From a virus: a DNA stretch of 48,354 bases. The DNA lies in the IMG/VR virus record IMGVR_UViG_3300031576_000075, positions 1-48,354 of that record. The stretch is one strand, 5' to 3'. Positions 31,669 through 47,605 of this stretch are shown in pieces. Under the pieces are notes generated by a model, which saw only the letters and a program-made list of their open reading frames with translations, did no database searches and was not told the DNA's origin. The translations under genes were made by a program, and so were the position numbers. How positions within the stretch are numbered: position 1 is the first letter of the stretch; each line of letters begins with the position of its first letter.

Positions 31669-31686
31669 GGGGAGGACCCACCGATA
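31669..31686 (+). promoter_or_regulatory. SD plus ATA start of the presumed decoration gene
   Basis: GGGGAGG (31669-31675), 8-nt spacer, ATA CGA. The ribosome-binding site decides the start, because no canonical start codon exists in the preceding 48 nt of this open frame. Confidence 0.75.
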
Positions 31687-32397
31687 CGACTGCTGAACGC
31701 TTCTTCGCGACTCCTGAACCTGCGCAACAACTTCGAGATTGTGGACGACTTCGACTGGTATATCTCGCCCCACCGCTGGACCAATATGACCACCGGTGTC
31801 TCCACGGCCTTCGCCCAGTCGGACGCCGAGCACGGAGTCATCCAGGGCGCCACCCCGGCCACGGACAACATTGACGTGATGGTGCGGTCCACCAACGAAG
31901 TGGCCTTGTTTCAGGCCGATTGCACGATGGTGTTTGAATCGCGCATCCAGTTCACCGAGATCAATGTCGATGACGCCAACGTGGCCGTAGGTTTGGCCGA
32001 CGCTGCCGGCGCTAACCTGCTTTCCAACGATGGCGGGGGCGACAACATCAACAGCTCGGGCGCCTTGATCTTCAAGGTAGACGGAGAAACCGTCTGGCGT
32101 TGTGCCTGCGAGATCAACGGCACGATTAAAGAAACCCAGTCGGTCCAGACGGCCGGCGGCGCCTCCTATCAGAACCTACGCATCGAAGTGCGAGCGGTCG
32201 ATGGCACCAACGTCGAGATCTGTTACTTCCTGGATGGCAAAGCCCTGACCGACAGCAACAATCTGCCCATCAAGCACACGATCGCTTACGCCAGCGCGAC
32301 GGAAATGCGTGTCGTGGCTGGTTACCTCAAGGCCGGCGGCGCCAACATCGAGACGCTGAACATCGACAGCGTCTTCTTCCAGGCGGGCCGCGTCTAA
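31684..32397 (+). CDS. Virion-associated protein, ATA start (237 aa)
   Basis: The frame opens after TAA 31633; the 16 codons up to 31684 contain no ATG/GTG/TTG. ATA 31684 stands 8 nt behind GGGGAGG. The first canonical start (GTG 31741) has no SD and would cut off the first 19 residues. The protein is beta-rich (FQADCTMVFESRIQFTEINV, SSGALIFKVDGETVWRCACE, EVRAVDGTNVEICYFLDGK), resembling concanavalin-like or decoration proteins. It lies between protease and major capsid, the usual place for a decoration protein. Exact family unknown. Confidence 0.78.
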   Translation: MRLLNASSRLLNLRNNFEIVDDFDWYISPHRWTNMTTGVSTAFAQSDAEHGVIQGATPATDNIDVMVRSTNEVALFQADCTMVFESRIQFTEINVDDANVAVGLADAAGANLLSNDGGGDNINSSGALIFKVDGETVWRCACEINGTIKETQSVQTAGGASYQNLRIEVRAVDGTNVEICYFLDGKALTDSNNLPIKHTIAYASATEMRVVAGYLKAGGANIETLNIDSVFFQAGRV

Positions 32398-32457
32398 CGG
32401 TCAGCGGGATGACGAACACACTCCGCCCTACTGGGTGGTCAACAGAGGGAGAATACG

Positions 32458-33672
32458 ATACCCGGCACGCGCTGCATCAACTACCGCGAGATCAAGCACC
32501 TGGTCGAGTCCCTCGGAGCGGACGACGCCTACCGTCACCTGTCCGAGGCGCTGGAATCCAAGGCCCTGCGAGCTGAGGACTTCACCCTGCGAGAGTGCGC
32601 CGAAGCGTTCATGGGTCGGGAGTGGGTCGACAATCTCCACCCCAAGCGCGGCCGCTACTACAGCGGGGCCCTGCTCGAAGCCGATGGGTCCGCAGTCGCC
32701 TTCAGCCAGTTTTCCAACATAACAGGCCAAATTTTCTTCTCGATGGTCAAGGATGGCTTCGACCAGGAAGTGCAACCCTTCTCCCAGCTGATTCCCACGA
32801 AACCGACTCAGATTCTCGGAATGGAAAAAATCCCGGGGATTTCCGAGGTTGGAGATGAATTCAGCGTCATCGGCGAAGGGATGGAATATCCGAACTTCGG
32901 CGTGTCCGAGGACTACGTCGAGATCGCCAGCAAGGAAAAACGCGGCGGAACCGTTCCGGTCACGAAAGAGGCCATCTACGCGGACAAGACGTCCGACCTG
33001 CTTCCCAAGTGTCGCGGACTCGGCAAGTGGCTGAAAATCAACAAGGAAAAGCGGCTCATTGACGTCCTCATTGACGAGAACGCCGGAGCCAAGTCGGCCG
33101 CGCTCGGAGGTCACAGACTGCACTGGAAGGGGACCAGTTACGCCACCTACCAGGCAACGACTCCCTGGGACAACGTGACCACGAGTAATGCCCTGGTCGA
33201 CGAAAGCGACCTGGAACAGGCATGGCTGACGCTGGTGGGGATCACTGACCCCTACACGGGCGAGCCCATCCCACAGACGCCGACACACATCATCGTCACG
33301 CCGCAGAACGTCATGACCGCCTACCGCATTCTCCGCGCTATCCAGGTGCGGACGCACGCGGGCGGCTATCCGACCTCTGGCAATCCGATGGAGACGACTT
33401 CCCCTTCGGCCCTGGACGTGATCGGACTGCAAAACCTCAAGGTGGTCACGAGTCAGCTCCTGGCCGCTCGGGCTGCGACGGATACCGACTGGTGGATGGG
33501 CTCGCCGGCCAAGGCGTTCGCTTACTTCAGCTGCTGGGACGTTACTACGGAGGAAGCCCCTCCGAATAGTAGGGAAGCGTTCCATCGCGATATCATCTTC
33601 CAGTTCAAGGCTTCCGAGATGGGTGTCGCTGGGACGCTGGAGCCCCGCGTCATGAATGAAAGTCGTGCGTAG
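32458..33672 (+). CDS. Major capsid protein, ATA start
   Basis: 405 aa starting ATA 32458, 7 nt behind GAGGGA. The first ATG (32611) would remove 51 residues that clearly belong to the protein (HLVESLGADDAYRHLSEALE). Core segments: QIFFSMVKDGFDQEVQPFSQ, GISEVGDEFSVIGEGMEYPN, GVSEDYVEIASKEKRGGTVP, THIIVTPQNVMTAYRILRAI, LQNLKVVTSQLLAARA and FHRDIIFQFKASEMGVAGTL. Length, position behind protease and the C-terminal fold fit a HK97-like capsid protein. A short piece of it is duplicated in the next gene. Confidence 0.85.
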   Translation: MPGTRCINYREIKHLVESLGADDAYRHLSEALESKALRAEDFTLRECAEAFMGREWVDNLHPKRGRYYSGALLEADGSAVAFSQFSNITGQIFFSMVKDGFDQEVQPFSQLIPTKPTQILGMEKIPGISEVGDEFSVIGEGMEYPNFGVSEDYVEIASKEKRGGTVPVTKEAIYADKTSDLLPKCRGLGKWLKINKEKRLIDVLIDENAGAKSAALGGHRLHWKGTSYATYQATTPWDNVTTSNALVDESDLEQAWLTLVGITDPYTGEPIPQTPTHIIVTPQNVMTAYRILRAIQVRTHAGGYPTSGNPMETTSPSALDVIGLQNLKVVTSQLLAARAATDTDWWMGSPAKAFAYFSCWDVTTEEAPPNSREAFHRDIIFQFKASEMGVAGTLEPRVMNESRA

Positions 33673-33680
33673 GCCGGCGA

Positions 33681-33899
33681 ATGGAGCAGAGCATGGATGG
33701 CATCGTCGACACGTCCGGGGGCGACCCTGGGCGGGAAGACCTTAACATCACTAGTCGGATTCTCTACTCGATGGTCAAGCAGGACTTCGGCCAGGAGATG
33801 AATACGTTCTCCCAGATGATCCCCACGAAGCCAACTCAGATGCGAGCCGACGATCTGAACAACCTCGATTTTGACGCCACGCTTACACCGTTGGACTGA
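33681..33899 (+). CDS. Small protein with duplicated capsid segment (72 aa)
   Basis: ATG 33681. Residues SRILYSMVKQDFGQEMNTFS and QMIPTKPTQM match the major capsid segment QIFFSMVKDGFDQEVQPFSQ ... LIPTKPTQI, at DNA level too. The ends are unrelated. Probably the remnant of a partial capsid-gene duplication; whether it is expressed is unknown. Confidence 0.6.
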   Translation: MEQSMDGIVDTSGGDPGREDLNITSRILYSMVKQDFGQEMNTFSQMIPTKPTQMRADDLNNLDFDATLTPLD

Positions 33900-33906
33900 G
33901 GAACGC

Positions 33907-34344
33907 ATGAGCCGAGACAACGATCCACGCCGTCCGCAAGGAGGCCCGAACGTGGCCCCGCCGCAGCAGTCGGACGACTTCGCTTCCGTCAGCAACAAGC
34001 CCACCGAATGGGTTGTGACGGTTCGCCACAGCCCATTCCTGCTCAAGGGTGCCACGGTCGAAGCCGCTTCTCCCGACGAGGCGAAGCGACGATTCCTGGA
34101 ACTAACCAAGCAGAGGTCTGAGGAAAAGGCCGGCAAGCAGCGAGGGCCAGAGCGCGACAAAGACGCCCAGCGCGTCCGCGACTCCCACGCCGAGGCGCTC
34201 AATCGTCAGCGTGACCTGGAGTGGACCGTCAGGCCGGCGGCCGAAGTGAAAGCCGAACTGGACGCCATCAAAGCAGCCCAGACGGGCGCCGCAACCCGCT
34301 TCGATGCGGCGGTCCAGGTCTTGGCAACCGCGGCCAAGCAGTAG
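33907..34344 (+). CDS. Hypothetical protein behind capsid gene (145 aa)
   Basis: ATG 33907 after GAGGAAC. N-terminal disordered stretch, a small globular part (PTEWVVTVRHSPFLLKGATV, EAASPDEAKRRFLELTKQR) and a long charged helix. The middle resembles short domains that place a beta hairpin on phage proteins. Function unknown. Confidence 0.55.
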   Translation: MSRDNDPRRPQGGPNVAPPQQSDDFASVSNKPTEWVVTVRHSPFLLKGATVEAASPDEAKRRFLELTKQRSEEKAGKQRGPERDKDAQRVRDSHAEALNRQRDLEWTVRPAAEVKAELDAIKAAQTGAATRFDAAVQVLATAAKQ

Positions 34345-34353
34345 GGAACGCGC

Positions 34354-34719
34354 ATGAAAACAGGACGACCGATTCAGGTGTTGGCTTCCGCGGCCCGAAC
34401 CGCAGCCATCAACAGCGACGACTTGCCCAGCTACGGCCACCGTGGCTTGCACCTGGTTGTCGACGTGACGGCCTACACTGCGGGCTCGATCACGCTCACC
34501 ATCCAGGGCAAGGACTCGGTCAGCGCCGTGTACTACACCCTCCTGGCGTCGGCTGCTCTGGCGGCGACAGGGACCACGGTCCTGAAGATCTATCCGGGCA
34601 TCCCCGTGATTGCAAACGGTGTTGCCAACGATGTGATGCCAGACACCTGGCGCGTGAGTGTTGCGGTAGGTGGCTCGCAGTCCATCACCTATAGCGTCGC
34701 GGCCTACCTCGTACCCTGA
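34354..34719 (+). CDS. Beta-rich virion-type protein (121 aa)
   Basis: ATG 34354. Beta-strand pattern: LHLVVDVTAYTAGSITLTIQ, KDSVSAVYYTLLASAALAAT, DTWRVSVAVGGSQSITYSVA. This resembles small phage proteins found behind the capsid gene, often annotated as head fibre or decoration proteins. Canonical ATG start, unlike its ATA-starting neighbours. Confidence 0.6.
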   Translation: MKTGRPIQVLASAARTAAINSDDLPSYGHRGLHLVVDVTAYTAGSITLTIQGKDSVSAVYYTLLASAALAATGTTVLKIYPGIPVIANGVANDVMPDTWRVSVAVGGSQSITYSVAAYLVP

Positions 34720-34732
34720 GTAACGAACCGAC

Positions 34733-35725
34733 ATGCCCAACGACTTCAACATTCTGGACGGCAGCGAGGACACCGGCACTGTGGCCGGGCAGCTCCAGGG
34801 CAACGTGGCCCACGACGCGGCCGACGTGGGCAATCCGACTGCCATCGGCGGCTACGCCAGTGCTGCGGCTCCTACGGATGTTTCTGCTGACGCAGATCGG
34901 GTCCGAGCCTGGTTCCTGCGCAACGGCAGTCAAACCGTCACGGTGACTGCGGCGGGCGCTCTTGTCAGCGGTGATGCCACCAATGGACTGGACGTGGACG
35001 TAACCCGCGTCATCCCGGGCACTGCGGCAACGGCGCTGGGGAAAGCTGAGGATGCCGTGCATGCCTCGGGGGACACCGGGGTTATGATTCTGGCGGTTCG
35101 CCGGGACACTGTTACCAGTCTGGTAGGCACAGACGGCGACTATGCTCCCGTGCAGGTTGACGCCGTAGGAAACCTGCGCTGCGTGCTGGATTCATACAGC
35201 ACGCTGGTTGGAATACAAGGATCAACAGCTCATGACGCCGTTGACGCCGGGAATCCAACCAAGCTAGGCGGAAAAGTCACGGTTGGCGTCCCTACAGGGG
35301 TAGCGAGCGCGGACAGGGTAGACGCCTATTTTGACCCGCAGGGCCGTTTGGTAACCGCTGGAGGGGCTGGTTTCGCCATCCAGCACGAGCCCGCCGCCAA
35401 CGTCCAGGGCACCATCACCCGCGCCGCAGCCGGTGCGGGGATCAAGAACGTCTGTACGAGCGTTACTGCCGCCATGAGCGCCACGGGCGTTGCCACGGCT
35501 GCTCAGGTGTTCGTGCGAGTGCGTGATGGCACCACTGGCGCCGGCACAATCCTCTGGACATGCACGCTAGCAGTCTCTGCTACGGCCGGCACCACGGACA
35601 AGGTGTCACTGGGCGGTCTGTGGATAGAAGGCACGGCTAATACGGCCATGACGCTGGAATTCTCGGCAGCCGGCGGCGCCAACACCATCCAGAGCGTCAG
35701 TTTGACGGGCACGACAGCTGGCTAG
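34733..35725 (+). CDS. Virion protein with internal repeat (330 aa)
   Basis: ATG 34733. Two related units: NVAHDAADVGNPTAIGGYAS ... DADRVRAWFLRNG and STAHDAVDAGNPTKLGGKVT ... SADRVDAYFDPQG. These recall repeat units in phage head or tail fibre proteins. The C-terminal third is a beta-rich domain (AAQVFVRVRDGTTGAGTILW, TAMTLEFSAAGGANTIQSVS). Probably a surface or fibre protein. Confidence 0.65.
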   Translation: MPNDFNILDGSEDTGTVAGQLQGNVAHDAADVGNPTAIGGYASAAAPTDVSADADRVRAWFLRNGSQTVTVTAAGALVSGDATNGLDVDVTRVIPGTAATALGKAEDAVHASGDTGVMILAVRRDTVTSLVGTDGDYAPVQVDAVGNLRCVLDSYSTLVGIQGSTAHDAVDAGNPTKLGGKVTVGVPTGVASADRVDAYFDPQGRLVTAGGAGFAIQHEPAANVQGTITRAAAGAGIKNVCTSVTAAMSATGVATAAQVFVRVRDGTTGAGTILWTCTLAVSATAGTTDKVSLGGLWIEGTANTAMTLEFSAAGGANTIQSVSLTGTTAG

Positions 35726-35769
35726 TACCCTGTGACGAACATGAAGCATGAAAGCTGGAGGTGTCGCCG

Positions 35770-36133
35770 ATAGCAAGAGATCTGACCCTGGCTGATGGAC
35801 AGCTTGGCACCACCGCCGCAACGCTGATTGCAGGCACCAGTGTGCCCGCAGGTTTCGTAGCCGTCCTGTTCAGCAACATCACCGCGCTAGACCAAACGGT
35901 AGTCCTGACGTTTCAGCGATCGGGCGGCACCGCTCGCCGCCGGGACCCTGTTTCGCGATCTGGAGACCGGCGAAGAGTGGTACTACGACGGTGCTGGCTG
36001 GAAGCGGATCGCCACGGGCCATGCTCTGATCGCAGCCGAGATGGCTGCAACACGTGAAACCATGGAGCAGGGCCAGCAGCAGATGCTGGTCCTGCTCGAA
36101 GAAATGCGTGATCTGCTGCTGCGCATTGCGTAG
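35770..36133 (+). CDS. Virion protein, ATA start, frameshift in the middle
   Basis: ATA 35770 lies 6 nt behind GGAGGTG. The in-frame GTG 35761 overlaps that SD and has none of its own. The first frame reads ARDLTLADGQLGTTAATLIA, FVAVLFSNITALDQTVVLTF. From ~35930 the coding signal moves to the +1 frame (GTLFRDLETGEEWYYDGAGW, EMAATRETMEQGQQQ, ending MRDLLLRIA, stop 36133), which has no start of its own after the TGA at 35906. Either two gene pieces were fused by deletion or a base was lost. Confidence 0.6.
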
Positions 36134-36140
36134 ACGTCGA

Positions 36141-36156
36141 AGGAGGCTAACCGGTA
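36141..36156 (+). promoter_or_regulatory. SD AGGAGG and GTA start
   Basis: AGGAGG (36141-36146), 7 nt, GTA (36154). A TAA in the same frame at 36148-36150 leaves only CCG before GTA, so translation in this frame cannot start further upstream. Confidence 0.75.
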
Positions 36157-36372
36157 GCGACCCGCATTCAGAATCTCGACGTAGCTCTCGACCAAGTGGC
36201 CAAGCAGTTGCGCGATTTGACGCTCAATCCCAAGCCGGATTACAGTGTGGACGGCAAGCAGTACAGCTGGTCGGCCCACTACCGCACCTTGCTGGAGATG
36301 CAGAAGACGCTACGCCAGGCTCGCCAGATGGAAGACGGCGCCTTCGAGGTCCGATCCCGAGGGACCGTCTAA
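36154..36372 (+). CDS. Small head/tail-region protein, GTA start (72 aa)
   Basis: GTA 36154 is preceded by TAA CCG in frame and by AGGAGG at 7-nt distance. The protein is natural from its first residues (ATRIQNLDVALDQVAKQLRD, YSWSAHYRTLLEMQKTLRQA) and ends EDGAFEVRSRGTV. The next canonical codon (GTG ~36196) lacks an SD and would remove 14 residues. Helical; likely a connector-region helper. GTA is the codon a UAU-anticodon initiator would read with the same first-position wobble by which fMet-tRNA reads GUG. Confidence 0.75.
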   Translation, partial: VATRIQNLDVALDQVAKQLRDLTLNPKPDYSVDGKQYSWSAHYRTLLEMQKTLRQARQMEDGAFEVRSRGTV

Positions 36373-36384
36373 GAGGATACCCGC

Positions 36385-36615
36385 ATGAACATCGAAGTGG
36401 TTGCCAAGATCGAGGTGTTTCAGGGCCAAGATGGCGAGATCTATGTATCGGGGCCCCTGGATGGACCCATTGGCAAGAGCCTGTGTACGGGCATGCTGGA
36501 GCGGGCCATCCGCAAGGTGGAAGCCCATCAGTCGAAGACGTCGGGACTTGTCGTGGCCCAGGGATCGATTCCGCCTGCGCCTGTGAATGGGACCAATCGC
36601 GTGCGTCAGGGATGA
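36385..36615 (+). CDS. Hypothetical protein before tRNA (76 aa)
   Basis: ATG 36385 after AAGAGGAT. Beta-hairpin-like N-terminus (IEVVAKIEVFQGQDGEIYVS) and helix (MLERAIRKVEAHQ). Unknown function. The tRNA gene begins 10 nt after its stop. Confidence 0.55.
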   Translation: MNIEVVAKIEVFQGQDGEIYVSGPLDGPIGKSLCTGMLERAIRKVEAHQSKTSGLVVAQGSIPPAPVNGTNRVRQG

Positions 36616-36625
36616 CGCAACCGAA

Positions 36626-36697
36626 ACCAGGGTAGAGCAGAGGCAGCTTGCCAGTTTTATATGCTGGAGGTCGCAGGTTCGATTCCTGCCCCTGGCA
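36626..36697 (+). tRNA. Initiator-like tRNA with anticodon UAU (reads AUA)
   Basis: Cloverleaf by eye. Acceptor ACCAGGG (36626-36632) with CCCTGGC (36690-36696): six pairs and an A1.C72 mismatch. D-stem GAGC/GCTT gives A11:U24. Anticodon stem CCAGT/GCTGG, loop TTTATAT with anticodon TAT (36658-36660). Variable loop AGGTC. T-arm GCAGG-TTCGATT-CCTGC, discriminator A, no encoded CCA. An unpaired 1:72, A11:U24, the GAGCAG..GG.AGCT pattern and AGGTC variable loop are as in bacterial tRNA-fMet; elongators normally have Y11:R24. One hallmark is missing: the three G:C pairs of the anticodon stem are reduced to one (30:40). Confidence 0.88.
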
Positions 36698-36727
36698 CTC
36701 TGATGAACGAACCGAAACCCAAGCAGC

Positions 36728-36741
36728 GGAGGTGATCGATA
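36728..36741 (+). promoter_or_regulatory. Extended SD GGAGGTGAT and ATA start
   Basis: GGAGGTGAT is fully complementary to the usual 3' end of 16S rRNA. It is followed by CG and ATA (36739). The TGA inside the SD (36733) is in frame with the ATA, so the frame cannot start upstream. It lies 31 nt behind the tRNA. The same arrangement occurs at 43408-43420. Confidence 0.8.
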
Positions 36742-37197
36742 CGCGGACGACGCTATACGGTAGCAGGGATTCAAACGGCGGTGGCAGCCAGTCCTGGCAA
36801 GAGCATGCTGGGTATTACCAGTACCACCGCCATCCGGCCACAAATCTACTACATCGGTATTGGCTGCCACGACACACCCGCTGACAACTCCCTTCAGTGG
36901 TTTATTCAGCGCAGCACGGCTGCTGGAACGAATACAGCGGTGACGCCCGTAGCGCAAGATCCGGGGGATCCAGTTTCGACGGCCGGCGGAACCAGTAATC
37001 ACACCGTCGAACCAACTTATACTTCCGCAACGGTCCTCTGGCGCATGCCCCTCAACCAGCGTGCCAGTCACAGTCTGTATCTGGAGCCCGATAGTGCCTT
37101 GGTCGCCCCAGCCACGGCAAACAACGGCCTAGGGCTTTACGTGATTCACGCCAGCTTCGTAGGTGCCGTTTCTGGCACTCTCTTCTTCCAGGAGTGA
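36739..37197 (+). CDS. Virion protein, ATA start (152 aa)
   Basis: ATA 36739, six nt behind GGAGG; the frame reads TGA TCG ATA, so only ATA is available. The residues before the first canonical codon (GTG 36781) are typical of the family (GRRYTVAGIQTAV). The rest is beta-rich: GITSTTAIRPQIYYIGIGC, SLQWFIQRSTAAGTNTAVTP, WRMPLNQRASHSLYLEPDSA, YVIHASFVGAVSGTLFFQE. It resembles small phage head/tail structural proteins. First gene after the tRNA. Confidence 0.78.
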   Translation: MRGRRYTVAGIQTAVAASPGKSMLGITSTTAIRPQIYYIGIGCHDTPADNSLQWFIQRSTAAGTNTAVTPVAQDPGDPVSTAGGTSNHTVEPTYTSATVLWRMPLNQRASHSLYLEPDSALVAPATANNGLGLYVIHASFVGAVSGTLFFQE

Positions 37198-37200
37198 TTA

Positions 37201-37632
37201 GTGCCAGCGGAATTTTGCGGAACGTGTCGACGATGCTTGCGCTGGAATGAAAGCCAAGACGTGGTTTACATCCAAGGCGTGGGCATGAGTTTGGCCTGTG
37301 CAAGCTGCCAAGCCAAAGAGGCTGGCCTGCCGTCGCCTCAACCCCGCATCTACCCCGTCGGTACACCCGTGCCCCGCCACCGGCACGGCGACGGGGACAT
37401 GCCCATCTGCGGCATGTGTCGCAAGGCTCTGTTTCAGAACGAATCCTGCGAGGCTATTCGCTTGCGCCACGAATTCCTGACCGATGAGGACGGACTGGCA
37501 CCAGGTGCTTACATGGCTTGTCGAGATTGCGTTGCCCGATTCCGAGGACGTCTCGCAGCTTACCTCCGCGCAGCGAACATCATAAAACCTGATGTCCCCG
37601 ACGAAGCCGTGGCTTGGAGTTTGCTTCTATGA
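37201..37632 (+). CDS. Zinc-finger-like protein (143 aa)
   Basis: GTG 37201 after AGGAG. Two CxxC-type sites: FCGTCRRCLRWNES ... LACASCQAKEAG and ICGMCRKALFQNESC ... MACRDCVARF. Probably zinc binding. It overlaps the next gene by 4 nt (ATGA). Unknown role within the tail region. Confidence 0.6.
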   Translation: MPAEFCGTCRRCLRWNESQDVVYIQGVGMSLACASCQAKEAGLPSPQPRIYPVGTPVPRHRHGDGDMPICGMCRKALFQNESCEAIRLRHEFLTDEDGLAPGAYMACRDCVARFRGRLAAYLRAANIIKPDVPDEAVAWSLLL

Positions 37633-37982
37633 TCCCCGTCCATCCCTTCGTCGGCGCCCGTCGCGCTGCTCCCGCTGGCCAGTTGGCTGGGGTGCTTGTC
37701 AGCACCCCAGCCGATGGTGGCAAGGAAGTCCAGACTGACATGGTTTGCTGCTGCCACTGTCAGCATACGTGGGCCTGGGTTGCCGGCTCGGGCCGTTGGC
37801 GGGGGAGTTGTCGCGACTGCGGCGGACTCACCTGCGGACCTGGGTGTCCTGTTCAGGGGTGCATTCCTGCACTGCAACTGATCGAGAACCTGGAAGCAGG
37901 CATGCTCTTTGATGACGCCTGTCGATACCGATCCATCAAGATCAGCGTTCCGGGCTCGCTCACCGAGGTGATTACTGTGTAG
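37629..37982 (+). CDS. Cys-rich protein (117 aa)
   Basis: ATG 37629 overlaps the previous stop. Middle part VCCCHCQHTWAWVAGSGRWR, then GSCRDCGGLTCGPGCPVQGC is a likely zinc-binding domain. The C-terminus IPALQLIENLEAGM is helical. Some phage small proteins before tail genes look like this; no function assigned. Confidence 0.6.
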   Translation: MIPVHPFVGARRAAPAGQLAGVLVSTPADGGKEVQTDMVCCCHCQHTWAWVAGSGRWRGSCRDCGGLTCGPGCPVQGCIPALQLIENLEAGMLFDDACRYRSIKISVPGSLTEVITV

Positions 37983-37997
37983 AAAAGCGGGACCTTT

Positions 37998-40295: not shown

Positions 40296-40298
40296 TCC

Positions 40299-40394
40299 AT
40301 AGCCATCGGCATCGTCACAGGGGTGGTCGTCTCGCTCAGCGCGGTCAGCGAATGGGGGTTCCCAAAGCTTTCTCGACCGACCATCCGCGCTTGA
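40299..40394 (+). CDS. Truncated paralogue of the next ATA gene (31 aa)
   Basis: ATA 40299, 6 nt behind GGGGAG, one codon after the preceding gene's TGA. Reads (start)-AIGIVTGVVVSLSAVSEW and ends at TGA 40394. Its first ~14 codons match those of 40535 on, with many synonymous differences (ATCGGCATC against ATTGGAATT). Two independent copies thus keep ATA at the same place. The copy is truncated. Confidence 0.6.
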   Translation: MAIGIVTGVVVSLSAVSEWGFPKLSRPTIRA

Positions 40395-40467: not shown

Positions 40468-40502
40468 GAGTCGTGCGGGTGTTGTCAGCGCCCGCACGAC
40501 TC
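40468..40502 (+). terminator. Strong hairpin between the two paralogues
   Basis: GAGTCGTGCGGG, 11-nt loop, CCCGCACGACTC; followed by GTGGTATTATAGG. Likely a terminator or mRNA stability element. TATTAT (40507) might serve as a -10 box, but no -35 is visible outside the hairpin. Confidence 0.55.
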
Positions 40503-40534
40503 GTGGTATTATAGGCCGCCGGAGGGTCGACGCG

Positions 40535-40963
40535 ATAGCAATTGGAATTGTCACTGGTGTCGTTGTTAGCCATTCGGCAATTTCATTATTTGCCAGAATC
40601 CGCGGTGCCGGCGGGGCGTACATAACCCAGGCGTCGATATCGACCATCGCCTACGCGGTCCGGGACCTCACCAACGGGACCACGGACAGCACTGGCACGT
40701 TCACGATTTCCACCACCGTTTTCAACGACCTTCAGACGACCGACCTTCGCTGGACCAAGGACGCCGTCGGCTACAACTTCCTGGCCACGATTGCCGCAGG
40801 AGGCTTTGATCGCTTCACCGTCGCGGACGCCAACGCGCCCGTTTCGCACAAGGTAACGTCGCATCGCTATCAAGTCTCGGTGCGATTCACCCCCACCGCT
40901 GGTGCCAGCAGTGCCTTTGTGATCCCCTTCCAGTTCAGCCCGATCCCCACATGGACCGCCTAG
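40535..40963 (+). CDS. Virion protein, ATA start, no canonical start in frame (142 aa)
   Basis: ATA 40535, 8 nt behind GGAGGG. The reading frame has no usable ATG/GTG/TTG over most of its length and is therefore easily missed by gene finders. It reads AIGIVTGVVVSHSAISLFAR, ISTIAYAVRDLTNGTTDSTG, ISTTVFNDLQTTDLRWTKDA, YNFLATIAAGGFDRFTVADA, HKVTSHRYQVSVRFTPTAGA and ends FSPIPTWTA at TAG 40963. Beta-rich, typical of small tail or connector proteins. Codon use is the strongly GC3-biased pattern of its neighbours. Confidence 0.82.
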   Translation: MAIGIVTGVVVSHSAISLFARIRGAGGAYITQASISTIAYAVRDLTNGTTDSTGTFTISTTVFNDLQTTDLRWTKDAVGYNFLATIAAGGFDRFTVADANAPVSHKVTSHRYQVSVRFTPTAGASSAFVIPFQFSPIPTWTA

Positions 40964-40972
40964 GAACTGCTC

Positions 40973-41680
40973 ATGCTCGACATAACCAAGACCTGTGAAC
41001 ACGATTGGCTGTGCTGGGACGGCCTGGAGACGGCCACCTATCGCTCCGTGCGCACCAGCGGCACGATGGTTGAGTACGTCGTGGACGCTGCTCTCCGGCG
41101 GGCCCCGACGCGGCGTGAGCTGGCTGCCTCCAATGGCGTCTACCAGGCCACGGATACGGTGTGGCTCATCCCACGGGTGGTTCTTGATGGAGCCCTGTCC
41201 GCCGAAGGTCAGCGTCCCAAGCCGCGCGACACCATCACGCCCAGCGAAGGCGGCGAGTGGACGGCTCTCGAAGTTGCCGAAGAAGTCGATCGCACCATCT
41301 ATCGGTTCACGACGCGAAACTTGGTCATCCATCTTGACCTGTTCGACGCCATCGACATCGAACGCGCCGGCGTCGTCTACAACAACGCCGGCATCCCAGA
41401 CAAGCAGTTCCCCCCAGAAGGCGGCGGCCGCGTTCTGTACTCTGCCCTGCCCTGCCGCGTGCAGAAGGACGAGGAGCGTATTGCCGACGAACGACTCTTG
41501 CGCGGCGAAGAGGTGCCGTACACGATCTTTCTGTCCCGCCAGGTGGTCATCGACGCGGCCGAGGATCGGGTGAAGTGGACCGACGGCAGCACCGTGCGTT
41601 ACCTCGATATCGTGCGGCTGGTCATGCCAGATAGACTAGATGAATTGCCCCGATTGGAATGCGTGCTCCGGGTGGCGTAG
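40973..41680 (+). CDS. Head-tail region protein (235 aa)
   Basis: ATG 40973. Beta/alpha mix: WDGLETATYRSVRTSGTMVE, YVVDAALRRAPTRRELAASN, DTVWLIPRVVLDGALSAEGQ and a C-terminal VKWTDGSTVRYLDIVRLVMP. Its position before a gp10-like gene suggests a head-tail connector or neck protein. No firm family. Confidence 0.6.
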   Translation: MLDITKTCEHDWLCWDGLETATYRSVRTSGTMVEYVVDAALRRAPTRRELAASNGVYQATDTVWLIPRVVLDGALSAEGQRPKPRDTITPSEGGEWTALEVAEEVDRTIYRFTTRNLVIHLDLFDAIDIERAGVVYNNAGIPDKQFPPEGGGRVLYSALPCRVQKDEERIADERLLRGEEVPYTIFLSRQVVIDAAEDRVKWTDGSTVRYLDIVRLVMPDRLDELPRLECVLRVA

Positions 41681-41690
41681 GGGGTGGGCG

Positions 41691-41867
41691 ATGATGCGCA
41701 GCACGTCAACTGTAAAGGGGGTTACAGTTGAGCCCGCAGACGGTAGGGTGACGGGCAAGGACGGCAGGACGAGGGGGCCGAGGAAGAAGAAGGTGCCATC
41801 TGGAGGCTCAACTGTAACCCCCTTTACAGTTGAGCGGCAGAAGGTGGCGCAGGAGGCCAAGCGATGA
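41691..41867 (+). CDS. Free-standing hairpin/VTGKDG module (58 aa)
   Basis: ATG 41691 (or 41694). The protein is nothing but the module also found in the ParB-like gene: TVKGVTVEPADGRVTGKDGR, then RKKKVPSGG, TVTPFTVERQK, aligned with EGSAPAPPDGKVTGKDGK ... KKKAFGSG ... SAPERQ. It lies between two copies of GCGATGATGCGC (41688-41699 and 41861-41872), the second being the start of the gp10-like gene. It thus looks like an insertion at that gene's 5' end, and it overlaps that gene by 4 nt. Confidence 0.65.
   Translation: MMRSTSTVKGVTVEPADGRVTGKDGRTRGPRKKKVPSGGSTVTPFTVERQKVAQEAKR
41706..41835. repeat. Second pair of inverted hairpins
   Basis: Hairpin 1 (41706-41731): TCAACTGTAA, loop AGGGGG, TTACAGTTGA. 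Hairpin 2 (41806-41835): GCTCAACTGTAA, loop CCCCCT, TTACAGTTGAGC. The stems match each other but not those at 4.4 kb. The G/C loop and the right flank TGAGCGGCAG are the same in both places. Confidence 0.85.
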
Positions 41868-42256
41868 TGCGCGGCAGCTTCAAATGGGATGGCGAGCGTG
41901 CCTATCAGGAGGTCCTGGACGCTGGCTGGGACGGCATCCGCCAGGCCACCGTGTTTCTGTGGCAGCAGTGCCAGTCGGCCATCAACACCCCCAGCTCCAG
42001 GCCCTACAGCGAGCCCACGCCGCCCGGCAACCGCGTCCCTGGCGAGCCACCACGGAAGCGCACCGGCTGGTTCCAGGCAAATGTCCTTTACACGCTGGAT
42101 CGTGCAGCGCTTACCGGTCGTGTCGGGCTCGGCCTGGGCGCTCGGTATGGTCTTTTTCTGGAGCTGGGCACGCGCCGGATGCTGGCCCGGCCCTGGCTCC
42201 TGGCAACGCTGAAGAAGGTTTGGGCGCAGCTTCAGGCCCTTGCTGGGAGGCCGTAA
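41864..42256 (+). CDS. HK97 gp10-like tail-completion/neck protein
   Basis: ATG 41864. The pattern RAYQEVLDAGWDGIRQATVF, TPSSRPYSEPTPPGNRVPGE, TGWFQANVLYTLDRAAL, GLGLGARYGLFLELGTRRML, ARPWLLATLKK fits HK97 gp10-type proteins (the YGLFLE.GT...ARPfl signature). These join head and tail. Length 130 aa is normal. Confidence 0.78.
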   Translation: MMRGSFKWDGERAYQEVLDAGWDGIRQATVFLWQQCQSAINTPSSRPYSEPTPPGNRVPGEPPRKRTGWFQANVLYTLDRAALTGRVGLGLGARYGLFLELGTRRMLARPWLLATLKKVWAQLQALAGRP

Positions 42257-42259
42257 TCC

Positions 42260-42697
42260 ATAGCGGATCCAGTCGACCATGACACCATGGCCGCAGTCCG
42301 AGCCCTCTGGCTGGCCACGCCTGCGCTCATGATGCTCCTGGGCGAGCCACATGCTGGCCGGCTCAAGAGCGGGCAAACCAGCATCTATGCGCATCTCAAA
42401 TGCGAATTGGACCGTCGGGAGTTGTTCGGCACGGGCTTGGCCTGGTCCGATCGTCGTCGAGTAACGCTCAGCATCGTCGGCACTGAAGACGAAGTCCGGA
42501 CGGCCCTAGGCGCAGTCCACGAGGTCTTCAACCTCCGCACCACGTTAACCTACCCGTCCGGGTCGCGCTTTCTCAGCTGGTGGCCGGAGTTTAGCGACCG
42601 ACTGTTCCAGGACGAAACGACACGGCGCGGCGAAGACATCTGGGTCGGCGAGTGCGTCGGCATCGTCTGGTCAGTACGCCCTACACCAGGCGCGTAG
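42260..42697 (+). CDS. Tail terminator-like protein, ATA start
   Basis: ATA 42260 lies 9 nt behind GGGAGG; an in-frame TAA stands two codons before. An ATG at 42287 exists but has no SD and would drop nine residues (ADPVDHDTM). I prefer ATA because of the shared context. The protein (AAVRALWLATPALMMLLGEP, KSGQTSIYAHLKCELDRREL, YPSGSRFLSWWPEFSDRLFQ) has the place and size of a tail-completion or tail-terminator protein. Confidence 0.65.
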   Translation: MADPVDHDTMAAVRALWLATPALMMLLGEPHAGRLKSGQTSIYAHLKCELDRRELFGTGLAWSDRRRVTLSIVGTEDEVRTALGAVHEVFNLRTTLTYPSGSRFLSWWPEFSDRLFQDETTRRGEDIWVGECVGIVWSVRPTPGA

Positions 42698-42783
42698 TCC
42701 TGGAGCCGAGCAGTCTGCCCTGGACCCAATCCTAGTCATGATGACGGTTGTTGGCGACCAGGGGGTAGGGGTAGATTGGGGCA

Positions 42784-42966
42784 ATGGACGGACACGACGC
42801 GGAACATCCCCTGGCGATGAAGGCGGAGTGGCGGGAACAGTGTGGGACCCGATTGCTCATTGGCCACTGCCCGCAGTGTCGCTATCGACACGCGACGGTA
42901 GAAACGCTGCTGTGGTGTCAGTGCGGGGCATGGATTCAACTCGAACCAGAAGTGGGTGATCGATAG
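42784..42966 (+). CDS. Small zinc-ribbon-like protein (60 aa)
   Basis: ATG 42784. Contains IGHCPQCRYRHATVETLLWC and QCGAWIQLEPEVGDR: a CxxC...CxC finger. Its TAG overlaps the ATA of the next gene (ATAG). A competing frame from 42738 looks unnatural. Confidence 0.6.
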   Translation: MDGHDAEHPLAMKAEWREQCGTRLLIGHCPQCRYRHATVETLLWCQCGAWIQLEPEVGDR

Positions 42967-43394
42967 CGCTTGACAACTACCAGCCAGGGCATACGCTGCC
43001 CGTCAATTTCTTCCTGAACGCGACCGGCCAGGCCTACATCCTAAACGTCAAAGGCTTCGACTTGGAGGATGGCGGCAACCTCATCGAGGTAACCAACACG
43101 CGCCACGCAGGCCGTACTGCCCACTTGGCTGGCCGGGCCATGATGAAGGGCCAATGCACGTTGTCGTTCGACCTTGACAGTAAGCCGTACCTTGCCACCC
43201 CGAACATCCGCTTTGGAACCCGAGGCGTCTTTCGCATGTTCACGAGCCGGCTGGGGACGTCTTACATTGATGTCCCCGCTTCCATCGCTAGCGTGTCCTA
43301 CCGCAGCGCGGTAGAGAGCGAGCTTCAGTGGACCGTGTCGTGGGTGGAAAACGTAGTCCAGGCGACCGGCCTCGTCGACGTCGCCTACGTGTAA
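42963..43394 (+). CDS. Major tail-type protein, ATA start (143 aa)
   Basis: ATA 42963; in frame the DNA reads TGA TCG ATA, so no upstream start is possible, and the first canonical start (TTG 43062) would cut 33 residues (ALDNYQPGHTLPVNFFLN, YILNVKGFDLEDG). The protein is beta-rich: NTRHAGRTAHLAGRAMMKG, FDLDSKPYLATPNIRFGTRG, SVSYRSAVESELQWTVSWVE. It is placed before the tail-assembly chaperones, the usual spot for the tail tube protein. Its start overlaps the stop of the previous gene as ATAG. Confidence 0.72.
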   Translation: MALDNYQPGHTLPVNFFLNATGQAYILNVKGFDLEDGGNLIEVTNTRHAGRTAHLAGRAMMKGQCTLSFDLDSKPYLATPNIRFGTRGVFRMFTSRLGTSYIDVPASIASVSYRSAVESELQWTVSWVENVVQATGLVDVAYV

Positions 43395-43407
43395 CAGCAT
43401 TGCAAGG

Positions 43408-43420
43408 GAGGTGATCGGTA
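43408..43420 (+). promoter_or_regulatory. Extended SD GGAGGTGAT and GTA start
   Basis: GGAGGTGAT (43408-43416 region), CG, GTA (43418). As at 36728, the TGA within the SD is in frame and rules out an upstream start. Together the two sites differ only in ATA against GTA. Confidence 0.75.
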
Positions 43421-43861
43421 CTCAAGCTCGGAAAAGTCAGCGAAGTACAAGCGCTGGGGCGCATGTGGAAAGTCAGTCGGCTGGAACTGCGATTGGTCCG
43501 GGAATTACGCGACTGGATCGAAGTCAAGGTCAAACGCAAGCTTGAACGCATCGGCCGTTTCTTCGACCGGCTTACGTCGGAAGATCAACTAGCACATCTG
43601 CGATGGGAGTCCTCCATAGCCGACCAGATGGATTCCTTTTCAATCGGCTGCCCGTTGGCTCGCGAATACCTGGCCACGGAGGAAGGCATGGCCTATTTCG
43701 GTCGGCTTATGCTCACAGAACACCACCCGGACATCTCCGAGGATCAGGCTTTCGCCGTGTGGATGGAGCTGGCTGAGTCAGGCCGCTCCGACCAGGTTCT
43801 GGCCGACGCCCAGGGCCGATTGCCCGGCCAGGGAAAAGTCGGGGCCCCGGAGGCGAGTTGA
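43418..43861 (+). CDS. Tail-assembly chaperone G-like protein, GTA start (147 aa)
   Basis: GTA 43418 after an extended SD; frame reads TGA TCG GTA. ATG 43463 has only a weak SD and would drop 15 residues (LKLGKVSEVQALGR) that belong to the conserved start. Body: LELRLVRELRDWIEVKVKRK, FFDRLTSEDQLAHLRWESSI, MAYFGRLMLTEHHPDISEDQ. Place before the tape-measure gene and a slippery GGGAAAA near its end identify it as the lambda G-like chaperone; a -1 shift yields the longer GT-like form. Confidence 0.78.
   Translation, partial: VLKLGKVSEVQALGRMWKVSRLELRLVRELRDWIEVKVKRKLERIGRFFDRLTSEDQLAHLRWESSIADQMDSFSIGCPLAREYLATEEGMAYFGRLMLTEHHPDISEDQAFAVWMELAESGRSDQVLADAQGRLPGQGKVGAPEAS
43831..43837 (+). promoter_or_regulatory. 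Slippery site GGGAAAA for -1 frameshifting
   Basis: In the frame of the chaperone the codons are CAG GGA AAA, i.e. G GGA AAA, a canonical X XXY YYZ heptamer similar to lambda's GGGAAAG. A -1 shift leads without a stop into the next frame (SRGPGGELTGPPG). Confidence 0.75.
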
Positions 43862-44130
43862 CCGGGCCTCCGGGGCACGTCGACTGGGTTCAGGTGTATC
43901 GCATCTTGTTGCACGGCGAGGGCCGTAAATTCAGCTTCTCTGAAATCGAGCACATGACAGCCGCGGAGGCAACCCTGGCCCTGGATCGCGACCTGGAAAA
44001 GAAGCGGCCTTCGTCGGGATCCACTGTTCTGGGCCAGTCGGGCGGCATGGATTTGCAGGAGTACGCCGACTGGTGGAGGTCCCAGTCGCCCAGGCAACGA
44101 CTCGAGCGCGTGCGGGAAAGATGGTGGTGA
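43858..44130 (+). CDS. Tail-assembly chaperone T-like extension (90 aa)
   Basis: Open in the -1 frame; the only canonical start is TTG 43858, overlapping the chaperone stop (TTGA) and preceded by GGAGG. More probably it is translated as the C-terminal part of a G-T fusion through the slippery site at 43831. Reads HVDWVQVYRILLHGEGRKFS, IEHMTAAEATLALDRDLEKK, MDLQEYADWWRSQSPRQRLE. It is directly followed by tape measure. Confidence 0.7.
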   Translation: MTGPPGHVDWVQVYRILLHGEGRKFSFSEIEHMTAAEATLALDRDLEKKRPSSGSTVLGQSGGMDLQEYADWWRSQSPRQRLERVRERWW

Positions 44131-44131
44131 C

Positions 44132-45598
44132 ATGGCCTTTAGCGCCAAGTTGGCCGAGTTGTTTGTCGAGTTCGTGGCCAAGGGACAAAACGACGTCAAA
44201 AAGGCGTTTGACGAACTTCGTGAAAAACTGGAAGGCGCCCAGGTGGCCGCCGACATTCTGGGCGGAGCCATCCAGTCCCGTCTCAATAATGCTGTTAATG
44301 TCTTGCAGCGTTCCATGGCGCAGCAGCTCGTTCCAGCCATTGAGGCCGCCATCGCATCCACCATTAAGCAGATTGCCGCTGTTCGCGGCATCAGCGAGGC
44401 TCACGCCCGACATTTGGTGCTGGTCGAAGAGGCCAGCGCCAAACAAGCGAAACTGATCGAAGAGGCCACCAGGAGAGTACAAGCCTATGGTCGCACAGCC
44501 ACCGATGCTCTCGGAAGACTGGCGACCGGGGCCTGGCAAACTCTCAACCATACCATCGGCAATTTCGTTCGTCAGGGGGTGGGAGCTTCGGCCATCGGCC
44601 AAGTGCTGAGCTTTCATATGGAAGCCCTGAGTCGTACCATTGCTGGCCTCTTCGGGCCGGAAATTCGCAAACTCGTGGACTTGGTGCGCAACCTGACGCG
44701 ATGGATCAACCAGTTGAGTGACGCTCAGCGCGACAGTCTGTCGCGCTGGATTCAGGGCGCCGCCGTCTTTGCTTTGGTCGGCGTATTGCTCCCGCGCCTG
44801 TACGCCACCTTTATCCTGGTCGTCACGGCTGTCAAGGCCGTCTCCGGATCGTTTCTTGGGTTGGCGGTGTCCATGGCTGGCTTGCTGCCGTTGCTGGGCC
44901 TGGCCATCGCTGCCTTTGCCGGCATGATGGCGGGGTCCGAGTCTGGCCGGGCTAGTCTGGCACCGCTAGGGCAGGCTTTTGCAAGTCTTGCAACAGCCGT
45001 GGGGAAACTGCTCACGGCTCTGGCCCCCATTGCGGAAGTAATCGCCAAGGCCATGACGCCTGCTGTGGAAGCCTTGGCCGGGGCGATTTCTTGGCTGTCC
45101 GGCCTGATCAACGAAAACACGCTCAAATGGGGAGCAGCGATTGGGGCTTTCGTGCTGTTTCTGGTTTACGTGCCTCGCATCGTGGCCGGCTTCACGGCAA
45201 TCATCGTCAAAGTGTGGGCCCTGGTCACTGCCCTGATCGCTCAGAACGCCGTTGCCAGCAGTGGAGCATCCTTGCTTCGCGACCTGGCCCTGGTCGCGCT
45301 GGCCGTCGGTGCGGGAGCCGCAGCCTACAACGCGACCGACAAGGCCCTGGCGGGCGAGAAGCAGGCTGGAGGCAAAGCCAAGCCCCATCGCGGCCCCGAG
45401 GCTCCCCGGGTGACAGGGTTTGAGCAATTGGAGGCGGCCTGGGACAGGGTGGCTCTGGCTTCGATGAAGGCAACGGCTGGCGGAGTTGGCAAGACTGTCG
45501 AGGAACAGCAACTGGACGAACTGCGCCGCATCGACCAGAACTTGGGCCGTGTCGAGCAGGCCGTGCGCGAAAAAGGTCCGAGTATAAAGGAACGATAG
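44132..45598 (+). CDS. Tape measure protein, short (488 aa)
   Basis: ATG 44132. Helical N-terminal half (KLAELFVEFVAKGQNDVKKA, LGGAIQSRLNNAVNVLQRSM), hydrophobic middle with several membrane-like segments (GLAVSMAGLLPLLGLAIAAF, LKWGAAIGAFVLFLVYVPRI, DLALVALAVGAGAAAYNATD) and a charged tail. Its place after the G/T chaperones fits tape measure. At 488 aa the tail would be short. Confidence 0.72.
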   Translation: MAFSAKLAELFVEFVAKGQNDVKKAFDELREKLEGAQVAADILGGAIQSRLNNAVNVLQRSMAQQLVPAIEAAIASTIKQIAAVRGISEAHARHLVLVEEASAKQAKLIEEATRRVQAYGRTATDALGRLATGAWQTLNHTIGNFVRQGVGASAIGQVLSFHMEALSRTIAGLFGPEIRKLVDLVRNLTRWINQLSDAQRDSLSRWIQGAAVFALVGVLLPRLYATFILVVTAVKAVSGSFLGLAVSMAGLLPLLGLAIAAFAGMMAGSESGRASLAPLGQAFASLATAVGKLLTALAPIAEVIAKAMTPAVEALAGAISWLSGLINENTLKWGAAIGAFVLFLVYVPRIVAGFTAIIVKVWALVTALIAQNAVASSGASLLRDLALVALAVGAGAAAYNATDKALAGEKQAGGKAKPHRGPEAPRVTGFEQLEAAWDRVALASMKATAGGVGKTVEEQQLDELRRIDQNLGRVEQAVREKGPSIKER

Positions 45599-45599
45599 C

Positions 45600-46886
45600 A
45601 TAGCCGATATCATCACCACCATCCCGCCGGATTCGCCGCCAGGGTCCGGTGGCGTACTCAATCAAAGCGGCATTGGTGGCAACGTCGCCAAGCTGGCGGC
45701 TCGCCCCCAGGGTTGGTACGAGGCCGATGGCTACGAAGAGGATTTCGCCGAAGAGGATGGCGGGCATTGCGTACGCTACTTCCGTGGCCCGTTTACGGGC
45801 CGTCACCAATGGCGTGAGTGGGTCCTGGGTTACTCGACCACGGTGAGTGTTTCGGGACGACCCTTCCTGACCCGCTCGATACCGATGCAGCATCCGGAGC
45901 TGTACTGGCTCTACGCGACATCGGTGAGCTTCACAGGCCAGGGAGCTATTGCTCCCTGGCCTGTCCGGTTACGCGATGGCGATGGCGGGGCCCTGGGGGT
46001 GTTTGATGAGTCGATCGTCTATTTCGACCGAAGTAGTTTTGGAGACAGCCAAACCTGTCTGGCCAAGGTCGAGTACAAGGCGCTGACGTACGAGGTGCGC
46101 ACCGATCGGGAAGTCCTGTCCGGCCTGCCAGGCAGCACGCTAGAGCTGAATCGGTACGTGACGCGGGAGAAGACTTACAACGCCCGGGCCCTGCCGATCC
46201 CCAGAGGGCATCTGAAGTACATTGAGGCCCCGTGGGTAGGCGAGCCGGTTCCAGAAACCGGCTTGCAACTAATTATGCCCACAGCATCCATGAAATACGT
46301 CTGGCATGACGTGCCGGACGAGCCGCGCGTGGCAATTCTTGCGTGCGTGGGCAAGGTGAATGACGCGGTGTTCGACGGCGCCAAGGGATGGCCTGAGTAC
46401 GCCGCAGAAACGCTGCTGTGCTTGCCTCCGGAAACGAAGCGCTACCGTACACCAGTCGGCCGGATCGCCTGGCGCGTTACGTACAACTTTCTGTATCAGC
46501 CTGAAACGTGGAACCGATTCCCGACTGCTTCCGGAGCCTTTGCCACGGTCCGCTGGTTCTCCAGCAGAGGACTGACGTCTGGCTCTCTAACTGGTAGCGT
46601 CAGTGGCTCCCTTTCCGGCCTGCTCGACGGTTCTTCGATCAGTGGCACGTTCTCTGGCACTGTGAACGGCACGTTTACAGGCACCGACGACGGCCAAGGT
46701 ACGCTCACCGGGACGTTTGAAGGCTCAATCTCCGGCACACTCACCGACGGGTCAGGCAGTCGCTCTGTCAGCGGCAATTTCGTCGGCAGCATGACGGTTC
46801 GTCGTAGTCGTGATGGTGAGCGCGTCTACAAAACTACGAATTTCAACCTCCTGTTCACACCGCCCGACCCCATACGCTACCAATAG
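45600..46886 (+). CDS. Tail protein, ATA start (428 aa)
   Basis: ATA 45600, 8 nt behind AAAGGA; in frame TAA lies five codons upstream and no canonical start until GTG 45843, which would lose 81 residues (ADIITTIPPDSPPGSGGV, NVAKLAARPQGWYEADGYEE, HQWREWVLGYSTTVSV). The body (YFDRSSFGDSQTCLAKVEYK, YVTREKTYNARALPIPRGHL, MKYVWHDVPDEPRVAILACV) looks like a distal-tail/baseplate protein. The C-terminal ~75 residues are a Gly/Ser/Thr repeat (SGTFSGTVNGTFTGTDDG). Confidence 0.75.
   Translation: MADIITTIPPDSPPGSGGVLNQSGIGGNVAKLAARPQGWYEADGYEEDFAEEDGGHCVRYFRGPFTGRHQWREWVLGYSTTVSVSGRPFLTRSIPMQHPELYWLYATSVSFTGQGAIAPWPVRLRDGDGGALGVFDESIVYFDRSSFGDSQTCLAKVEYKALTYEVRTDREVLSGLPGSTLELNRYVTREKTYNARALPIPRGHLKYIEAPWVGEPVPETGLQLIMPTASMKYVWHDVPDEPRVAILACVGKVNDAVFDGAKGWPEYAAETLLCLPPETKRYRTPVGRIAWRVTYNFLYQPETWNRFPTASGAFATVRWFSSRGLTSGSLTGSVSGSLSGLLDGSSISGTFSGTVNGTFTGTDDGQGTLTGTFEGSISGTLTDGSGSRSVSGNFVGSMTVRRSRDGERVYKTTNFNLLFTPPDPIRYQ
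45933..45964. repeat. Perfect 14-bp hairpin inside the tail gene
   Basis: ACAGGCCAGGGAGC, loop TATT, GCTCCCTGGCCTGT, encoding TGQGAIAPWPV. Comparable to the other in-frame hairpins, but without their G/C loop. Confidence 0.75.
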
Positions 46887-46906
46887 ACCAGTAGCAAGAG
46901 TGCCAG

Positions 46907-47605
46907 ATATCCGAGCCCACTCTCCCTGAATTAGGCAAGTCCTTCGCCACAGACAAAGCGACCGATCACGGTTATCTGCCGCTCTACGAGCGCTTTCTGG
47001 GCCCCCGGCGTCACTGCCCGATCCGCCTGCTGGAAATCGGTGTCTACCGGGGCGAATCGCTGCGTCTGTGGCGGACCTACTTTCCCCAGGGGCGGATTTA
47101 CGGTCTGGATAGCGACCCGGGCTGCGCACAGCACGAAGAAGAACGAATCAAGATCACCATCGGCGACCAGAACGACCTGGTCTTGCTGGCGCGCATTGCG
47201 ACGGAGGCGGGCCCCTTCGACGTCGTGATTGACGACGGCGGGCACTTGTGGGGGCAGCAACTGGTGTCCCTTATCCACCTCTGGCCTGCTGTGGCCCCGG
47301 GCGGCCTGTACGTAGTCGAGGACCTGCACACCAGCTACCACGAGACGTACCGAGCGGGCGAGACGCGAACTACAGACTGGCTCAAGGGGCTGGTCGACGC
47401 CGTCAACCTGAGAGGACGATCGTTTTACGGTGACCGTGTACGGGACCCGAACTTCGCGGCCCTGGCGCCGCAGCTGGACGAATGGGAACGCACGGTTTTC
47501 GGGGTGCATTTCTTTAAGAGCATCGCGTTCGTGGAGAAGCAGACGGTCGAGCTTGGAGCAGGGCTGTCGTTGGCAACCGGCAACGCCGTCGCGGATTTTG
47601 CTTGA
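46907..47605 (+). CDS. Class I SAM methyltransferase, ATA start (232 aa)
   Basis: ATA 46907 behind CAAGAG. The first canonical start (TTG ~47183) lies beyond motif I, so it cannot be right. Visible: FATDKATDHGYLPLYERFLG, motif I LLEIGVYRGESLRLWR, FPQGRIYGLDSD, motif II/III PFDVVIDDGGHLWGQQLVSL, APGGLYVVEDLHTSYHE. This matches the family of sugar/macrocin O-methyltransferases (TylE/CmcI-like). In a tail locus it might modify host or virion glycans; substrate unknown. Confidence 0.85.
   Translation: MSEPTLPELGKSFATDKATDHGYLPLYERFLGPRRHCPIRLLEIGVYRGESLRLWRTYFPQGRIYGLDSDPGCAQHEEERIKITIGDQNDLVLLARIATEAGPFDVVIDDGGHLWGQQLVSLIHLWPAVAPGGLYVVEDLHTSYHETYRAGETRTTDWLKGLVDAVNLRGRSFYGDRVRDPNFAALAPQLDEWERTVFGVHFFKSIAFVEKQTVELGAGLSLATGNAVADFA

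Follow-up and report, generated by a model that had tools for sequence, protein, structure and literature searches.

Recoding of stop codons by phages that carry suppressor tRNAs was reportedly described by Borges in 2022. We analyzed what may be a recoding of start codons in an uncultured virus record, IMGVR_UViG_3300031576_000075, of 48,354 nucleotides (48.4 kb, the window). A number of genes of its packaging, head and tail block appear to start with ATA or GTA, and the only tRNA gene of the window, with anticodon UAU and features of an initiator, lies among them. The closest described systems each share part of this arrangement; for the articles cited here, statements rest on excerpts of their text. 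Phage stop-codon recoding (PMC10879173) also joins a phage tRNA to recoded structural genes, with gating of late genes proposed, but it concerns a stop codon and an elongation suppressor, whereas a start codon and an initiator-like tRNA are concerned here. As in recoding that gates late genes, the codon is confined to late or structural genes and its cognate phage tRNA is in the genome. Engineered Escherichia coli initiators decoding UAG or GUC (PMC2268962) have an initiator body, an altered anticodon and a matching non-AUG start; those were made in the laboratory for other codons, whereas the window tRNA is natural, phage-borne, accompanied by about a dozen recoded genes and devoid of the three G-C pairs. 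The attenuating AUA/AUU starts of infC, ccpN, citZ and cvfC1 in Staphylococcus aureus (PMC13009471) resemble those of the window in that AUA stands behind a Shine-Dalgarno (SD) site, but they belong to single genes with no cognate tRNA and yield about 10-30% of AUG output. Phage CAU initiator tRNAs (L031-L038) share the D-stem and the open or weak 1-72 pair and are, among the matches listed, those whose sequences most resemble that of the window tRNA; they differ by their anticodon, and the genome of one of them (L034, scanned as L055) had ATA/GTA-only starts in 0 of 68 genes. Ten IMG/VR UAU tRNAs have the same anticodon and an initiator-type D-stem but no convincing ATA starts around them. 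In the titles, abstracts and excerpts of open-licence PMC literature covered, on start codons, initiator tRNAs, initiator-tRNA nucleases and stop-codon recoding, no phage ATA start was found, nor any initiator tRNA that in nature has an anticodon other than CAU.

We consider it likely, from the sequence, that this phage initiates at AUA in late genes using its own initiator-derived UAU tRNA. The first half of the window is devoted to DNA metabolism (helicase, methyltransferases, thymidylate synthase, integrase), and the second half holds terminase, portal, MuF-like, capsid, neck and tape-measure genes. Curation of the latter yielded 13 genes with predicted unusual starts, 11 with ATA and two with GTA, listed here with a possible 14th.

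23091..26720, + strand: portal protein gene, ATA start; first NTG codon at 23559 (+156 codons).
31684..32397, + strand: head-region gene that begins with ATA behind GGGGAGGA; its L056 orthologue has ATG there.
32458..33672, + strand: major capsid protein (MCP; PF25209), ATA start; first NTG 51 codons on.
35770..36057, + strand: small gene, ATA start; a weaker case, with GTG at 35761 within its SD site.
36154..36372, + strand: small gene, GTA start behind AAGGAGG.
36739..37197, + strand: gene right after the tRNA, ATA start behind GGAGGTGATCG.
40299..40394, + strand: partial duplicate (31 codons) of the beginning of the gene at 40535, with SD site and ATA.
40535..40963, + strand: gene that starts with ATA; of its 142 codons, 115 pass before any NTG.
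42260..42697, + strand: gene that follows the one of neck type and starts with ATA.
42963..43394, + strand: gene with ATA start and weak SD score; "tail tube" by position only.
43418..43861, + strand: gene with GTA start behind AGGGAGGTGATCG; "chaperone" by position only.
45600..46886, + strand: gene downstream of that for the tape measure protein; it starts with ATA, and 81 codons pass without an NTG.
46907..47605, + strand: methyltransferase (PF13578; match to phrog_21658 from residue 5) that starts with ATA, its first NTG lying 92 codons on.
21407..23005, + strand: terminase large subunit (TerL), the possible 14th; ATA at the best SD spacing, ambiguous given the NTG codons upstream.

The SD site upstream of the 13 starts is mostly good, and in 12 of them the stretch from the preceding in-frame stop to the start codon is free of ATG, GTG and TTG. 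The next NTG downstream is 8 to 156 codons away, mostly with a poor SD score. A sequence-only reading of the window had confined such starts to packaging, head and tail genes. They do lie on the morphogenesis side only, with the qualification that the methyltransferase at 46907 is not a virion protein, and the span it had given, 31684-47605, leaves out the portal gene at 23.1 kb. Its portal and capsid assignments stood, whereas its tail tube, chaperone and baseplate labels found no support in PHROGs or Pfam matches; those of tail tube and baseplate are positional. Structure predictions without alignments for the genes at 42963 and 45600 (mean predicted local distance difference test scores of 31 and 35) were uninformative and were not used. 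Two local oddities occur in this region: a partial duplication of a gene start, SD site and ATA start included (40299-40394 and 40535-40600), and two overlapping frames at 35770-36133 that resemble one gene broken near 35940, by a frameshift or an assembly error.

The starts were counted by a strict automatic procedure, with late genes taken from 20901-48354 and early genes from 1-20900. Control genes came from 17 loci, of which 3 belong to named phages and 14 to viruses that have an initiator-like UAU tRNA. Open reading frames open at the contig start and genes under the coding-score cut-off were left out before counting, and contigs L013/L023 and L015 were left out of the strict count. ATA/GTA-only starts were found in 9 of 31 late genes versus 0 of 27 early ones (Fisher p=0.002) and 2 of 395 controls (p=9e-10), a total in which a few genes count twice because some control pieces overlap. 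ATA/GTA starts are thus present beyond chance. A test independent of gene calls ranked the 64 triplets by their enrichment 4-10 nt downstream of SD cores. In 31601-47700, ATA was the most enriched of all (13 observed against 3.1 expected; p=2e-5 without correction); its excess in 1-20900 was not significant (10 against 5.8). An earlier SD analysis spanning all codons was too noisy and was not used. The second codon was GCN after 7 of the 13 ATA/GTA starts compared with 12.1% of internal codons (p=3e-4), or 6 of 12 when the duplicate at 40299 was excluded (p=0.0015); internal ATA/GTA codons were followed by GCN in 10 of 68 instances.

Homology extends upstream of the first NTG codons. The portal protein matches Pfam and PHROGs from residues 91-92, with its first NTG at residue 157, and its similarity to L056, the only relative found, begins earlier still. 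In the methyltransferase, PHROGs homology runs from residue 5 and the first NTG is at residue 93. Six genes occur in both the window and L056, with their order conserved (TerL, portal, MuF, 30309, 31684, MCP). The portal, 31684-like and MCP genes of L056 start with ATG, and their aligned N-termini fall within 3, 1 and 3 residues, respectively, of the ATA codons of the window, where no in-frame NTG occurs between the upstream stop and ATA. In the MCP, the ATG of L056 is 3 codons nearer the conserved INY than is the ATA of the window. Strict ATA/GTA-only starts numbered 0 of 15 in L056, whose contig ends 0.29 kb past the MCP gene, short of the site where the tRNA would lie. Other relatives were sought without success: scans of viral contigs with MCP and TerL gave none, tblastn against phages with the MCP and portal of either genome gave no matches, TerL matched phage proteins at less than 60% identity only (about 36% for the best among the matches listed), and the portal had no match in plasmids. 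A short ATG gene at 33660-33899 repeats a segment of the MCP.

The tRNA gene itself is as follows.

36626..36698, + strand: tRNA with anticodon UAU, initiator-like; A1.C72, A11:U24, A37, CCA not encoded.

An open end of the A1.C72 type and an A11:U24 pair are marks of initiator tRNAs. In the window tRNA, positions 1 and 72 form an A1.C72 mismatch, with base 1 left unpaired in the RNA fold, and A11:U24 takes the place of a pyrimidine 11:purine 24 pair. Of 63 parsed tRNAs, 18 had A:U at 11-24; most of these were CAU initiators or members of the UAU set, the latter having been retrieved with the A11:U24 motif itself. The other tRNAs mostly had C:G or U:A. A BLAST search of phage records with the tRNA gave many weak matches, and eight of the best among those listed, once opened, were all tRNA-Met(CAU). 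ARAGORN and Rfam label the gene tRNA-Ile or tRNA, and its anticodon is not the CAU of bacterial tRNA-fMet. Because initiator marks are present but the anticodon stem is AGU/GCU and not GGG/CCC, we regard this tRNA as initiator-derived and probably working like an initiator, but not as a canonical tRNA-fMet; of the 7 phage CAU initiators that were parsed, only 3 have GGG/CCC. An elongator tRNA-Ile(UAU) serving codon supply was rejected, since ATA is rare inside genes (late, 16 of 6,861 codons, 2.3 per thousand; early, 10 of 3,503, 2.9 per thousand).

UAU tRNAs of similar appearance were looked for elsewhere. Five patterned scans of IMG/VR, which may miss records very close to the window, returned ten contigs with a UAU tRNA and an initiator-like D-arm according to ARAGORN (L002, L011, L012, L013, L030, L046, L047, L048, L051 and L052), including two pairs with identical tRNA sequences; L044, L045, L049 and L050 were left out, as ARAGORN called no UAU tRNA in them. 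The scans made gave no sign of kinship between these ten contigs and the window phage. Two ATA/GTA-only candidates were found among 222 genes of the scanned viral contigs with UAU tRNAs. A UAU tRNA alone therefore does not imply recoded starts, and a general rule linking UAU initiators to ATA starts is ruled out by these contigs. Within the data scanned, the pairing of the tRNA with ATA starts is unique to the window. A scan of GTDB gave six matches, four of them UAU tRNAs (L024, Arthrobacter; L027, a cyanobacterium; L028, Arsenophonus; L029, Roseobacter) and two, L025 and L026, without a tRNA. The tRNA at 4492-4568 of L028, a cellular contig of an Arsenophonus endosymbiont, has a GGG/CCC stem and C:A at 1-72 and resembles a normal initiator with one anticodon base altered. 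In G001, Rfam tRNA matches of about 120 nt at 8637-8763 and 8772-8892, without an ARAGORN call, perhaps contain insertions.

Initiation at AUA by such a tRNA has precedents. In vitro, an initiator tRNA with UAU was active on AUA, giving 39.1% full-length product and being listed above the AUG/CAU pair (PMC10158994), and anticodon-mutant initiators are functional in E. coli (PMC2268962). In the scheme that we propose, the anticodon of an initiator-derived tRNA would have been altered from CAU to UAU, and a set of head and tail genes in the phage lineage from ATG to ATA (to GTA twice). During late expression, the tRNA would probably be processed out of the late transcript, charged with Met or Ile, formylated owing to its open 1-72 pair and placed in the P site at AUA, and proteins with ATA starts would be made well only when the phage tRNA is present. 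The starts themselves, their restriction to the late block, the ATG codons of the L056 orthologues and the initiator marks of the tRNA are read directly from the sequence; that the tRNA reads the ATA and GTA starts is inferred, as are its charging, its synthesis during late expression, the direction in which the codons changed and any gain in regulation.

Several observations weigh against this reading. In 20901-47700, CTA ranks first after SD cores (32 observed, 15.1 expected) and ATA second (17 against 5.9), and GTA showed no enrichment in the gene-free test. In vitro, IF3 tolerates Watson-Crick pairs alone at the first base of the codon (PMC10158994); for both of these reasons, GUA is doubtful as a start for a UAU tRNA. 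The same in vitro work shows that UAU also takes AUG by wobble, and the tRNA would therefore not be exclusive to AUA. The anticodon stem (29-31/39-41) is AGU/GCU, without three consecutive G-C pairs, and E. coli initiator mutants without them are far less active (PMC2268962). No convincing ATA starts accompany the initiator-like UAU tRNAs of the ten IMG/VR contigs, and the case consists of one genome plus one relative, L056, whose contig stops before the tRNA site. Roughly as many late genes start with ATG, GTG or TTG as with ATA or GTA, about half of the late genes being ordinary. Gating would thus not extend to the whole virion set: the neck gene at 41864 keeps ATG, as do the following.

44132..45598, + strand: tape measure protein, ordinary ATG start within the block; a counter-example.
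28449..30290, + strand: MuF-like head morphogenesis protein, ordinary ATG start; ATG in L056 too.

Finally, confinement to late genes is equally expected from a neutral drift of ATG to ATA where the tRNA is present.

Such drift is the alternative that survives best, and we hold it to be possible, if on the doubtful side. A UAU initiator reading both AUG and AUA would have been acquired first, and ATG would then have drifted to ATA solely in genes whose expression coincides with the presence of the tRNA, a ratchet that leaves the phage dependent on the tRNA with no regulatory gain. It predicts late confinement without selection and the mixture of ATA and ATG among late genes; other phages that keep UAU initiator-like tRNAs with ATG starts could represent its first step, and both AUG/UAU and AUA/UAU are active in vitro (PMC10158994). 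However, about half of the late genes have moved to a codon otherwise very rare in the genome, and drift to GTG would have been equally easy.

It is unlikely that these are ordinary weak starts, at which a host fMet-tRNA reading AUA poorly damps virion genes as in infC and ccpN, the tRNA being an unrelated elongator. Starts of this kind do exist with an ordinary initiator (about 10-30% of AUG; PMC13009471), and the tRNA-Ile/tRNA label of the gene would fit. Nevertheless, there is little reason to damp the major capsid and portal proteins, the tRNA has a D-stem and a 1-72 end of the initiator type, internal ATA is rare, and the cases described in PMC13009471 are single genes with no block.

Rather improbable is an escape from host defense, in which the altered anticodon loop would spare initiation from VapC-type nucleases that cut the host initiator tRNA. 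VapC cleaves initiator tRNA (PMC10264068, PMC12482277), changes in the loop reportedly let phage tRNAs escape anticodon nucleases (PMC10264068), and such an escape would account for UAU initiators in phages that lack ATA starts. It would nonetheless have no need for ATA starts, since UAU reads AUG (PMC10158994), and phages generally avoid encoding tRNA-fMet where VapC threatens (PMC10264068). An artifact, through misassigned frames, overlooked NTG starts or faulty assembly, is hardly credible: some genes are small or without an assigned function and the one at 35770 looks frame-broken, but the homology upstream of the first NTG, the orthologue N-termini and the SD statistics largely refute it.

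Returning to initiation at AUA by the phage tRNA, the sequence-only reading had placed the tRNA within the same gene run, as borne out by its position amid late genes, and had proposed a post-transcriptional early/late switch. This timed switch is only partly supported. Late confinement, the embedded tRNA with its initiator marks (A1.C72, A11:U24) and an integrase fit a gating of virion genes, but a promoter scan for the tRNA was at chance level (4 found, 2.9 expected). Being embedded without a clear promoter, the tRNA probably comes from the same transcript as the mRNAs, which would give a coupling and not a timer. A block in lysogens had also been suggested. An integrase makes lysogeny possible:

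17613..18158, + strand: tyrosine recombinase (PF00589), a family match.

Given this gene, a temperate lifestyle is possible, but a full block is unlikely, since with the ordinary initiator of S. aureus an AUA start gives about 10%, and up to 30%, of AUG expression (PMC13009471). The phage tRNA could therefore raise expression of these genes several-fold, and a tight block in its absence is not expected. That the purpose is a late or lysis-coupled gating, or a feed-forward, falls just short of an even chance in our judgment. A neutral ratchet comes somewhat behind it, and an escape from nucleases that cut the host initiator tRNA seems to us improbable, as does any other purpose.

Elsewhere in the window, GC content is 56-65% (2-kb windows). 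The thymidylate synthase family protein at 10460-12253 has its two matching parts separated by an HNH endonuclease segment, possibly an intein. At the contig end (48135-48354), an exact 93-bp tandem repeat in 2.4 copies is a terminal repeat or an assembly edge.

Phage recoding is known for stop codons, and a matched pair of an initiator-like tRNA and recoded starts would extend it to initiation. One consequence is practical: gene callers limited to ATG, GTG and TTG shorten the capsid, portal and methyltransferase proteins of such phages. The pair also offers a natural orthogonal part for initiation. Tentatively, tRNA-UAU with AUA/GUA might form a second initiation channel beside the host CAU/AUG, with capsid, portal and tail genes placed in it; if so, efficient synthesis of virion proteins would be closed to a lysogen, to a satellite and to a rival phage without the tRNA. 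Virion production would then be tied to a tRNA that the host may not supply, a role in timing being a guess, and the pair of tRNA and recoded starts might account for the presence of initiator tRNAs in some phages.

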